From positions 1,984,001 to 2,048,000 of the forward strand of contig NZ_CP107785.1 of the NCBI RefSeq assembly GCF_036345915.1: a stretch of 64,000 nucleotides of DNA, given 5' to 3'. Made by a program: the position numbers and the translations under genes. The DNA comes from Nocardia sp. NBC_00565. Lineage in GTDB: Bacteria > Actinomycetota > Actinomycetes > Mycobacteriales > Mycobacteriaceae. Positions 16,827 to 20,345 of this stretch are shown piece by piece; the stretch's first letter is position 1, and the number at the start of each line of letters is the position of its first letter. The notes under the pieces are model-generated. The model searched no databases and had not been told where the DNA came from. It saw only the letters and a list, made by a program, of their open reading frames with translations.

Positions 16827-17690
16827 ATGGCGGCGACGGGTGTCCTGGACGAGATCGTCGATTCGGCACGGTATCCGCTGGGGGATCCGAACGGTGCCGG
16901 GTGGCAGCAGGCGGTGGCGCGGGCGCGGGCCGAGCTGGCCGCGAGCGGCTGCACCGTGCTGCGGGAGTTCATCCGCCCAGAGCTGATCGAGACTCTGCGC
17001 GCGCAGGGCGAGGCGATGGCACCGGACGCGCATTACAAAGTCGAACGGGTCAACGCCTACAACATTCCGTTGGATACCGAACTGCCGGACGATCATCCGG
17101 GCCGCATCGTGCTGGAACGCGGCAACGCGTTCGTCCCGCGCGATCGCATTTCGCCTGCGGCGCTGATCCATCGGCTCTACACCAGCACGGTGTTCCAACG
17201 CTTCGTCGCGGACTGTTTCGGACTGGCCGAGCTGCACGAATTCGCCGATCCGCTGGCCGGACTGTGTCTGAACGTAGTGTCCCCCGGAATGTCGCACCCC
17301 TGGCACTTCGACACCAACGAATTCACCGTCAGTATGTTGACCCAGCCCGCCGCGGCCGGTGGAATCTTCGAGTACTGCCCGAATATCCGCTCACCCCACG
17401 CCGAGCATCTCGATGACGTGCGCGATGTGCTCACCGGTTCCGGTGCGCGCCTCGTCCAGCGCCTCGAGCTGCGACCCGGCGACCTGCAGTTGTTCCAGGG
17501 CCGCTTCTCACTGCACCGCGTATCACCGGTCGAGGGCGGCACGGCAAGGCATTCGGCGATCTTCGCCTATACCGATCGGCCCGGTGTCATCGGCACCGTG
17601 GAACGCACTCGTCAGCTGTTCGGACGAGTGCTACCCGATCACCTAACCGCCGCGGCCGACGCCGTCCGTGGCGATCGGTTGCTCGACTGA
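16827..17690 (+). CDS. Putative Fe(II)/2-oxoglutarate-dependent oxygenase
   Basis: 287 residues from the ATG at 16827. The double-stranded beta-helix iron triad is visible: HxD in PWHFDTNEF (His160, Asp162) and the distal His in RFSLHRVSP (His230), followed by Arg241 in a position suited to bind 2-oxoglutarate. The aspartate in HxD points to a hydroxylase rather than a halogenase, which would have Gly or Ala there. It is the first of three closely spaced genes (gap of 10 bp to a methyltransferase, which overlaps a carnitine-acyltransferase-like gene). This recalls gamma-butyrobetaine or trimethyllysine hydroxylation in carnitine synthesis, although the sequence is not obviously of that family. 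The substrate is unknown. Confidence 0.7.
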   Translation: MAATGVLDEIVDSARYPLGDPNGAGWQQAVARARAELAASGCTVLREFIRPELIETLRAQGEAMAPDAHYKVERVNAYNIPLDTELPDDHPGRIVLERGNAFVPRDRISPAALIHRLYTSTVFQRFVADCFGLAELHEFADPLAGLCLNVVSPGMSHPWHFDTNEFTVSMLTQPAAAGGIFEYCPNIRSPHAEHLDDVRDVLTGSGARLVQRLELRPGDLQLFQGRFSLHRVSPVEGGTARHSAIFAYTDRPGVIGTVERTRQLFGRVLPDHLTAAADAVRGDRLLD

Positions 17691-17700
17691 GAGGGACGAT

Positions 17701-18537
17701 ATGCCAGCGCCGTTGCATACGACCGGGAAAGCTTCCTTCGACAATATCTACGACCGTCCCGATCCACGCGAATACTACGCCCGGATGTCCGAATTGGACT
17801 ATCGCATACCGGAACTGGCCAAACCGTTCTTCCAGCAACAGATTCGGGAATACCGCGCCCGCGCGCGCGTCGATTCCCCGACCGTCCTCGATATCGGCTG
17901 CTCCTACGGCGTGAATGCGGCACTGCTGCGCCTCGACACCACAATCAGCGATCTGGCCGACCACTACCGGGTCGGCGCGGATGCCGACCACGCCGCACTC
18001 ATCGCGCGCGACCGGGGCCTCGTGGCCGCGCGCGACCAGTTCACCGGCGTTCGCTTCATCGGCATGGACGCCGCCCGACCCGCGCTCGCCTACGCGCGGG
18101 AAGCCGGATTCCTGCACGACACCGTGCACGCCGATCTCGAGGCCGGCGACCCGACCGATGCGCAACGCCGTACGCTGGCGGCCGCGGATATCGTCATCTC
18201 GACCGGCTGTATCGGCTACGTCACCGAGAAGACCGTCAAACGCGTGGCACTGGCGCATCCGCGTCGGCGGCCGTGGATGGCACACTTTGTGCTACGCATG
18301 TTCAGTTTCGAACCGATCGCCGCGGAACTGGCCGCGCTCGGTTACCACACCGAGCGAGCCCCCGGGGTGTTCGAACAACGTAGATTCGCCTCCGACAGTG
18401 AACGCACCCAGGTGCTGAATACCTTGGCCGCCAACGGTATCGACACCGAAGGCCAGGAAAGCACGGGCTGGCTGCTCGCCAACCTGTATATCTCGCGACC
18501 GCTCCAGAACCACGCCGACCCCGAGGACCCGCATTGA
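17701..18537 (+). CDS. Class I SAM-dependent methyltransferase-like protein
   Basis: 278 residues from the ATG at 17701, with a GAGGGA ribosome binding site. The glycine-rich SAM loop VLDIGCSYGVNAALL (62-76) is clear, and a second acidic segment with DIVISTGCIGYV fits motif IV. The N-terminus (ASFDNIYDRPDPREYY) is shared by small-molecule methyltransferases. Its stop overlaps the TTG start of the acyltransferase gene, so the two are translationally coupled. With the upstream oxygenase and downstream acyltransferase it could N-methylate an amino acid to a betaine; that role is inferred from neighbours. Confidence 0.72.
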   Translation: MPAPLHTTGKASFDNIYDRPDPREYYARMSELDYRIPELAKPFFQQQIREYRARARVDSPTVLDIGCSYGVNAALLRLDTTISDLADHYRVGADADHAALIARDRGLVAARDQFTGVRFIGMDAARPALAYAREAGFLHDTVHADLEAGDPTDAQRRTLAAADIVISTGCIGYVTEKTVKRVALAHPRRRPWMAHFVLRMFSFEPIAAELAALGYHTERAPGVFEQRRFASDSERTQVLNTLAANGIDTEGQESTGWLLANLYISRPLQNHADPEDPH

Positions 18538-20345
18538 CCGAACGCACCTTCGCCGCCGACGACCACCTGCCCCGGGTGCCCCTGCCGACGCTGGAGGACA
18601 GCGGCGAGCGGTTGCTGCAGTGGTGCGCACCACTGCTGACCGCCGACGAATTCGCCGCTACCGAGGCTGCTGTCGCCGATCTGCTGAGCGCCGACGGCCC
18701 CGGCCGGAAACTGCACGCGGCACTTGCCGAATACGACGCGACCCCCGGCGTCGGCAGCTGGCTGGACCTGTTCTGGCCCTCGCGCTATCTGGGCCGGCGC
18801 GATCGCATCGCGTTGAACGCCAACTTCTTCTTCCTCTTCCGCGACGACACCCCACTGGCCACCTCCACCGAAGCGACCCAGGTGGACCGCGCGGCCGGAA
18901 TCGTCGCGGCGGCGGTCGATTACAAGCTGGCGCTCGATATCGAGGCCATCGCGCCGGTCACCCAGCGTGGGCAGCAGCTGTCGATGTGGCAGAACAAGTA
19001 CCTGTTCTCCGAGACCCGGATTCCGGGAGTGCCGCAGGATTCCGTGCGGGTGCCCTACAGCGACGAATGGCCGGGCCATTCCGATGCCAGGCATATCGTG
19101 GTGTTCTTCCGCGGCAGCATGTTCCGGATGGATGTCATCGGCCCGGACGGTGCGCCATATTCGCACGATGATCTCGCCGACGGGCTGCGCGCGGTGCTCA
19201 AGGCCGGTGCGCGCTCGGCCCGCACCGAAACCGCCGTCGGGCACCTGACCACCAAGGCCAGGGCCGAATGGGCGGCCAGTAGACAGGGATTGCGCGCCGA
19301 ACCCGCGAACGTCGCGGCGTTGGACGCTATCGAGACCGCGCTGTTCTGTCTGTGCCTGGAGGACTTCACGCCGCGCGACGAACTGCAGGCCTGCGATCAG
19401 CTGCTGCACGGCGACAGCGCCAACCGCTGGTTCGACAAGGCGGTGTCGTTCATCGTCTTCGGTGACGGGCAGGCCGGCATCAATGTCGAGCACTGCGGAC
19501 TCGACGGCACCACCATCCTGTCCTTCGTGGACACGCTGCTGCAGACCCCCGCCGCCGAGCACGCGAGTCGGTCCGGGGCACAGCCGCAGGGTCTGCCCGC
19601 GGTGGAGCCGATCGAGTTCGTGCTCGACGCGGCGCAGCGGGCCGATATCGCCGCCGCGGGTTCGGCATTCGCCCGGTACGCGGCCGAGAACGCCACCACG
19701 ACAGTGTCTTTCGATTTCGGTACGGGTCGGGCCAAGCAGTTGGGCATCTCGCCGGACGCGTTCGCGCAGCTGAGTTATCAGCTGGCGCATCGGCGCAGCA
19801 AAGGTCTGACCGGGGCCACCTATGAGTCCATCGCGACCAGGCAGTACCGCAACGGGCGCACCGAAGCGATGCGGGTCGTGACGCCGGAGATGGTGGCCTT
19901 CGTCGATGCCATGCAGGATCCGGCGGTCGCTCCGGCCGAGCGGCTCGTGGCCGCGCGGACCGCTGCGGGCGCGCACGTCGAACGGGCCAAGCAGTGCCAG
20001 CAGGGTGACGCGCCCGAACAGCATCTGTGGGAGCTGGAGTGGATCCAGCGGCGGCGCGGCGCGGAACTCGGCGTCACCGACCCGATCCCGCTCTACACCA
20101 GTCCCGGCTGGACGATCATGCGCGACGACTACCTGAGCACCAGTTCGGCTCCGTCGGTCAATATCCGCTACTTCGGTTTCGGATCGACCAGCCCGAAGTG
20201 CATCGGCGTCGCCTATGTCCTGCTGCCGGATCGGTGGAACCTCTACCTGGCCACGCCCACGCCGGTCGCCGACGAGATGTACGCCTTCGCGGATCATCTG
20301 AGGACCGCCGTCGCCGACCTGGAGGCCCTGCTCTCCGGATCCTGA
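18534..20345 (+). CDS. Choline/carnitine O-acyltransferase family protein
   Basis: 603 residues. The start is a TTG at 18534 overlapping the previous stop (TTGA). The family signature is complete: active-site His in INVEHCGLDGT (His320), the YRNGRTEAMR segment that positions the carboxylate and CoA, and YLSTSSAPS (STS at 535-537) near the C-terminus. Family members move acyl groups between CoA and the hydroxyl of carnitine or choline. They are typical of eukaryotes and uncommon in bacteria. The setting behind an oxygenase and a methyltransferase suggests an acceptor made by those enzymes. A perfect 21-bp inverted repeat follows 27 bp downstream and probably ends the transcript. Confidence 0.88.
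   Translation: MTERTFAADDHLPRVPLPTLEDSGERLLQWCAPLLTADEFAATEAAVADLLSADGPGRKLHAALAEYDATPGVGSWLDLFWPSRYLGRRDRIALNANFFFLFRDDTPLATSTEATQVDRAAGIVAAAVDYKLALDIEAIAPVTQRGQQLSMWQNKYLFSETRIPGVPQDSVRVPYSDEWPGHSDARHIVVFFRGSMFRMDVIGPDGAPYSHDDLADGLRAVLKAGARSARTETAVGHLTTKARAEWAASRQGLRAEPANVAALDAIETALFCLCLEDFTPRDELQACDQLLHGDSANRWFDKAVSFIVFGDGQAGINVEHCGLDGTTILSFVDTLLQTPAAEHASRSGAQPQGLPAVEPIEFVLDAAQRADIAAAGSAFARYAAENATTTVSFDFGTGRAKQLGISPDAFAQLSYQLAHRRSKGLTGATYESIATRQYRNGRTEAMRVVTPEMVAFVDAMQDPAVAPAERLVAARTAAGAHVERAKQCQQGDAPEQHLWELEWIQRRRGAELGVTDPIPLYTSPGWTIMRDDYLSTSSAPSVNIRYFGFGSTSPKCIGVAYVLLPDRWNLYLATPTPVADEMYAFADHLRTAVADLEALLSGS

Follow-up and report, generated by a model that had tools for sequence, protein, structure and literature searches.

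A conserved gene set for an oxygenase, a methyltransferase, and an acyltransferase

In a 64,000-nucleotide stretch of the Nocardia sp. NBC_00565 genome (hereafter the window; the genome is a single contig of 9.71 Mb), three adjacent genes on the forward strand encode an Fe(II)/2-oxoglutarate oxygenase of the BesD/HalB (HalD) family with an HFD...H...R motif (OX, 16827‒17690, 287 aa), a class I S-adenosylmethionine-dependent methyltransferase (MT, 17701‒18537, 278 aa), and a choline/carnitine-type O-acyltransferase related to CPT2, CrAT, COT, and ChAT (CAT, 18534‒20345, 603 aa, TTG start). We are highly confident that OX, MT, and CAT form a conserved three-gene pathway. The chances seem roughly even that these genes constitute a complete three-step route to an O-acyl hydroxy-amino-acid betaine, for which "betaine" is a plausible product class. 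More tentatively, we propose that this dedicated pathway, which belongs to the core of Nocardia, leads to an unrecognised class of short-acyl hydroxy-amino-acid betaines of a signalling- or osmolyte-like nature, a bacterial counterpart of acetylcarnitine and acetylcholine with its own acyltransferase specificity class.

The three same-strand open reading frames lie where the first-pass annotation had placed a set of coupled genes. OX and MT are separated by 10 bases, and the TTG start of CAT overlaps the MT stop by 4 bases. That annotation had also suggested testing whether the three genes rarely occur together, and the outcome ran the opposite way: they are nearly always together. In the class, OX and CAT accompany each other in 35 of 35 carrier genomes, and each of the three genes occurs in 146‒147 of 148 Nocardia genomes. 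Both genome samples were drawn evenly from larger groups. In the 148 Nocardia genomes, MT and CAT are each present in 147, and OX is present in 147 if a weak match in G048 (E = 8e-5) is counted and in 146 without it. The CAT match is split in two in G028, G072, and G135 (best E 1e-88 to 1e-98), and G055, a draft of about 1340 contigs, is without OX, MT, and CAT. MT is flanked by OX and CAT in 30 of the 30 top Nocardia loci. A rare cassette or an oddity of a single strain was thus rejected as an explanation.

Across 345 genomes of the class, a PF00755 protein was found in 37, scoring above 500 bits in 35. The same 35 genomes carry OX at E < 1e-100 and the cassette-type CAT above 500 bits, and the two sets are identical. 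In each of these 35, OX lies next to CAT. MT stands between them in 32; the exceptions are G397 and G430, in which MT is missing locally, and G164, in which OX-CAT and MT-CAT are apart. A scan of GTDB contigs gave 388 OX relatives, and among the best 80 of them CAT adjoins OX in 80 and MT is present in 68. These 80 come from Streptomyces, Actinomadura, Amycolatopsis, Actinokineospora, Frankia, and their relatives; outside Nocardia, the cassette is scattered in Streptomyces, Actinomadura, Amycolatopsis, and Frankia. The protein distances of OX, MT, and CAT correlate at about 0.90 over 52 loci, a value that also reflects species history. From the co-occurrence counts, the linkage of the three genes is far beyond chance.

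Membership in a larger cluster was considered and rejected. Among 91 loci, the largest other neighbour family occurs in 29, all in Streptomyces; a Ser/Thr kinase type recurs in 12 (three genera) and an acyl-CoA-dehydrogenase-like type in 6. The three genes might alternatively be an operon by history only and serve unrelated processes, as the uncoupled cases G048 and G164 would allow. This explanation is very improbable: the trio stays together across Nocardia, Streptomyces, Actinomadura, Amycolatopsis, Actinokineospora, and Frankia without any other widely shared neighbour, some genomes encode MT and CAT as one protein, and OX and CAT occur in identical genome sets among the 345.

OX as a predicted amino-acid hydroxylase

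In Pfam, OX matches PF23169 (HalD) above the cut-off (E = 5e-13), with WelO5 as the only other, weak match. The HFD motif and the distal His and Arg are present, and together with the HalD match they bear out the earlier description of a 2-oxoglutarate hydroxylase with a visible HxD...H motif. The structure model of OX is best matched by HalB, Hydrox, and BesD, at 14‒20% identity in the ten best rows. The Asp/Glu iron ligand is reported to be lost in BesD-type radical halogenases (PMC10187165), and HalB has Gly at this position. In OX, the iron-ligand Asp is retained in 139 of 139 rows, which comprise distinct sequences of at least 300 bits and at least 240 aa, some genomes giving several loci; the second OX of G053 (298 bits) and distant OX relatives were dropped. 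OX is, with little doubt, a hydroxylase and not a halogenase.

In the BesD family, E123 and D143 (BesD numbering) contact the substrate amino group (PMC13244439). OX has Leu143 in 136 rows (Tyr in the other 3) and Thr163 in all 139 at these acid sites, and the acidic pair that marks lysine/ornithine hydroxylases is absent. The BesD numbering was transferred to HalB by motif, with the equivalents of D239, R77, and W241 outside the comparison. OX is predicted to hydroxylate an amino acid or an amino-acid-derived small molecule.

Some distant relatives of OX lie in other surroundings. A 33%-identical relative directly follows an arginine deiminase/dimethylargininase (DDAH)-like gene (L232, 5233‒6849), and an amino-acid-type ABC transporter adjoins another (L233). 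The neighbours of distant OX and MT relatives (L231, L232, L233, and L068) are suggestive, pointing to amino-acid chemistry only.

Acceptor and acyl sites of CAT

CAT matches PF00755 over 573 of 574 profile positions (E = 4e-153, 511.5 bits against a cut-off of 22.3) and is the sole match to this family in the genome. The first-pass annotation credited CAT with all key motifs, which holds for catalysis (His) but fails at the carnitine acceptor site. All 155 rows have the catalytic His, and the residues at the Tyr452 and Thr465 sites are retained. Arg518 of CrAT, which holds the carnitine carboxylate, is common to CrAT, COT, and CPT2, and two non-cassette bacterial CATs also have Arg at this site. 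In the cassette CATs, however, Gln takes this place in 139 of 140 covering rows, and the Arg expected of a carnitine-specific acyltransferase occurs only in L069, from the second cassette of Nocardia G053. The rows are distinct sequences of at least 150 bits and at least 450 aa, with the two non-cassette CATs (f35) left out; 15 rows end before the 518 site and 43 before the Met564 site. The sites were placed by sequence alignment, and structure models were made for MT and OX.

Since Gln replaces the Arg for the carnitine carboxylate, the natural acceptor of CAT is likely to be other than carnitine. In choline acetyltransferase, Val, Asp, and Asn replace Thr465, Glu, and Thr467, and Asn is located at 518. 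This pattern is absent from CAT, which has Thr at the 465 site and Ala at the 467 site in 151 of 151 covering rows. Judging from the aligned residues, the acceptor of CAT is probably neither carnitine nor plain choline. The Met564 site of CrAT is the acyl-length gate, and Gly at this site, as in CPT2, is a trait of long-chain acyltransferases. The cassette CATs have Phe in 111 of 112 covering rows and Leu in one, and this occupation of the gate by Phe suggests that the acyl group is probably short.

These sites bear on a carnitine pathway, in which OX would make L-carnitine or a near homologue from γ-butyrobetaine, MT would give the methyl groups, and CAT would make the acylcarnitine. CAT does belong to the carnitine acyltransferase family, with CPT2 and CrAT as its nearest relatives, and keeps the Thr465 and Tyr452 sites. 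On the other hand, the Arg of CrAT, COT, and CPT2 is replaced by Gln throughout the cassette rows except L069, while the two non-cassette bacterial CATs keep it. Moreover, OX matches HalD and, weakly, WelO5 only, whereas the known carnitine-pathway oxygenases are of the TauD type, unlike HalD. We therefore consider a carnitine pathway improbable.

Paralogues of CAT were found in several Nocardia genomes. G053 carries a second complete cassette (L281, 4321‒6987), with an OX of 53‒55% identity and an MT-CAT fusion of 889 aa, which may represent a sister pathway that uses another acceptor. Five genomes carry a stand-alone second CAT (L276, 4125‒5909, reverse strand; L277, 4325‒6115; L278, 4023‒5813, L279, 3922‒5712, and L280, 3832‒5622, all reverse strand) that is 49‒53% identical to the cassette CAT. 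In all five, Glu replaces the catalytic His (EESGLDG versus EHCGLDG), and Arg occupies the carnitine site. The paralogues of L276 and L277 adjoin a class I/II aminotransferase and a D-2-hydroxyacid dehydrogenase, assigned by Pfam, and an MFS transporter (by Pfam in L277); two of these neighbours have counterparts with similar protein starts in L278 and L279. We consider the stand-alone paralogue to be a diverged CAT or a non-acyltransferase with its own cluster.

MT and a probable requirement for methylation

The structure model of MT shows a confident class I Rossmann methyltransferase fold, with a predicted local distance difference test score (pLDDT) of 90. Sequence comparisons were less specific: only sub-threshold methyltransferase matches were obtained in Pfam, with no match at E ≤ 0.1 to Methyltransf_33, which we take to be the EgtD-type amino-acid trimethyltransferase family, and a PDB sequence search for MT found nothing specific. 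An NCBIfam scan of OX, MT, and CAT gave no match at E ≤ 0.1. The closest named relatives of the window MT are Nocardia proteins of 86‒89% identity, and the top row reaches 96%.

The onium centre might also be sulfur, with a hydroxylated and acylated sulfonium related to S-methylmethionine or dimethylsulfoniopropionate as the product. The methionine S-methyltransferase MmtN is among many class I Foldseek matches of the MT model, and a 46%-identical OX relative (L231) adjoins an M24 protein with DddP as its best NCBIfam match (291 bits against a cut-off of 600). However, MmtN is not specifically close to MT, with no sequence match at E ≤ 1 and no place among 50 structural-match rows, and the DddP-like neighbour occurs in one genome (G457), which has no PF00755 match. 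A sulfonium product is accordingly more improbable still than a carnitine one.

MT and CAT are joined in a single protein in the second cassette of Nocardia G053 and in G461, a Frankia (940 aa), and open frames of 1037 and 990 codons span MT and CAT in G405 and G445. Conversely, OX and CAT are adjacent without MT in 12 of the 80 OX loci. Eleven of these 12 genomes have an MT homologue elsewhere at 38‒45% identity, compared with an extra homologue in 5 of 24 MT-containing genomes (Fisher p = 7e-5, with kinship not removed, different query proteins, and the 24 being a subset of the 68). A tree of MT sequences (92 rows) places the in-trans copies from the 11 genomes in three groups, none of which includes a copy from the 24. 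Another supported clade contains the extra copies, the window genome's own paralogue, and a second copy of L212, one of the 11. Since 8 of the 11 copies fall in one group, as few as three independent events may lie behind this pattern. Eight of the 11 in-trans loci share the same chromosomal surroundings, where the genes resemble, by eye, xanthine dehydrogenase subunits; these neighbours were uninformative. Methylation looks required for the pathway.

These observations also bear on a pathway in which OX and CAT make an acylated hydroxy amino acid and MT adds a single N- or O-methyl group as optional tailoring, so that the product would be non-quaternary. The MT-less loci and the generic fold of MT favour this alternative, as does Amycolatopsis anabasis (L191), in which no MT homologue was found at E ≤ 0.001. 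It is contradicted by the in-trans copies, which lie in clades without copies from the 24 MT-containing genomes, by the MT-CAT fusions, and by the known acceptors of the CAT family, which are trimethylammonium alcohols. We regard optional single methylation as unlikely, though the strongest of the alternatives.

Two further MT relatives were noted. The window genome has, at a great distance from the cassette, a second MT-family gene of 39% identity (L061, 8529‒9371, reverse strand; G000:C1:3497573-3498352), which falls in a clade apart from the cassette MTs. A 34%-identical homologue (L068, 6383‒11432, reverse strand) lies amid genes for an OTC-like carbamoyltransferase, a second methyltransferase, a PALP protein, and an MFS transporter, a run that resembles a small amino-acid natural-product cluster, so far uncharacterised.

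Proposed pathway

In the pathway to an acylated betaine that we favour, the substrate would be a common cellular amino acid or an amino-acid-derived acid. Considering its family and motif, OX would hydroxylate an unactivated carbon; MT would then methylate, most likely on nitrogen to give a trimethylammonium group, and CAT would use a short-chain acyl-CoA, for instance acetyl-CoA, to esterify the hydroxyl so formed. The pathway logic of the first-pass annotation is supported: a scheme of hydroxylation, methylation, and acylation fits the enzyme families and the gene order, and the MT-CAT fusions support it. Such a pathway would yield a small O-acyl hydroxy-amino-acid betaine analogous to acetylcarnitine or acetylcholine. 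This product would not be an ester of carnitine, and it is unlikely to be a long-chain lipid. If the acceptor were a β-hydroxy amino-acid betaine, the N-C-C-O core of choline would be retained, and the carboxylate would lie away from the former Arg site.

Several observations weigh against this proposal. The most telling are the MT-less OX-CAT loci, the genome with MT and CAT without OX (Nocardia G048), and the single genome without a found MT (L191). In G164, assigned to Frankia by its group, one site carries OX-CAT and another MT-CAT; together with G048, this indicates that the pathway steps can be uncoupled. The 12 MT-less loci and L191 likewise mean that methylation may not be obligatory. 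In addition, the fold of MT fails to discriminate among N-, O-, S-, and C-methyl transfer, Gln at the 518 site could bind a carboxylate after all, and the paralogous cassette of G053 has the carnitine-type Arg together with Ile at the Thr163 site of OX.

With a near-universal pathway of three adjacent, expressible genes and nothing else constant around them, a conserved metabolite hidden in a well-studied genus could be tested for directly. Since Nocardia has the pathway in its core, the metabolite may serve as a chemotaxonomic marker or act as a physiological solute. With its Gln site, CAT may define a third class of acceptor specificity alongside those for carnitine and choline. OX would add to the family of free-amino-acid hydroxylases, which are used in biocatalysis.

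Genomic surroundings of the cassette

The cassette is preceded by metH, a Ser/Thr kinase gene, and a HAD gene, and is followed by hisE-hisG. In 20 further Nocardia loci across the diversity of the genus, the HAD gene lies upstream in 18, hisE lies downstream within the stretch in 18, and both are found in 16. The position beside hisE is no oddity of this strain. Genes at the loci were called with our own codon-usage script, which missed OX in L246, where the OX search places one.

In seven Nocardia loci (L264‒L269 and L274), a pyridine-nucleotide-disulphide oxidoreductase gene lies between MT and CAT, and in L270 it is upstream of MT (3975‒5336, reverse strand); it is absent from the remaining loci read. 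PF07992 was shown in L264 and L269, and the other loci were assigned by similar protein starts. In G048, a single-contig genome, a gene for an LGFP-repeat protein is located upstream of MT in place of OX (L271).

Between CAT and hisE lies a perfect 21-bp inverted repeat with a 2-nt loop (20373‒20416, unstranded). This hairpin is real, as reported earlier, but its supposed role in isolating the cassette is a strain-specific detail. It occurs once in the genome, even with up to 3 mismatches allowed, and a scan found no T-tract behind it. No perfect inverted repeat longer than 14 bp was found in 28 readable CAT-hisE gaps of other Nocardia, 6 of which have repeats of 10‒14 bp. Since the hairpin is unique in the genome and unmatched in these gaps, it is not part of the conserved unit, and we rejected it as a conserved signal; a strain-specific transcription stop is possible.

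Comparison with known systems

Our literature search, an incomplete one by titles and abstract openings, found no paper on the OX-MT-CAT set, and we do not claim its absence from print. BesD, HalB, and Hydrox (PF23169) are radical halogenases and hydroxylases of free amino acids, and OX belongs to the same fold family. It differs from them in its low identity (14‒20%), the Asp ligand, and the replacement of the acids for the lysine amino group by Leu and Thr. CAT shares full-length homology, the catalytic His, the Tyr452 and Thr465 sites, and the STS motif with CrAT, COT, and CPT2, but it has Gln at the Arg518 site, Ala at the Thr467 site, and Phe at the Met564 site. With choline acetyltransferase, CAT has in common the PF00755 family, the catalytic His, and the absence of the carnitine Arg. 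However, CAT keeps Thr at 465, and its Ala467 and Gln518 fit neither ChAT nor CrAT. In the eukaryotic carnitine route, a trimethylated amino acid is hydroxylated and then acylated, and the cassette follows a common logic of an oxygenase, methyl groups, and O-acylation. The cassette differs in that its oxygenase is of another family, its three genes are adjacent and bacterial, and its acceptor is apparently not carnitine.

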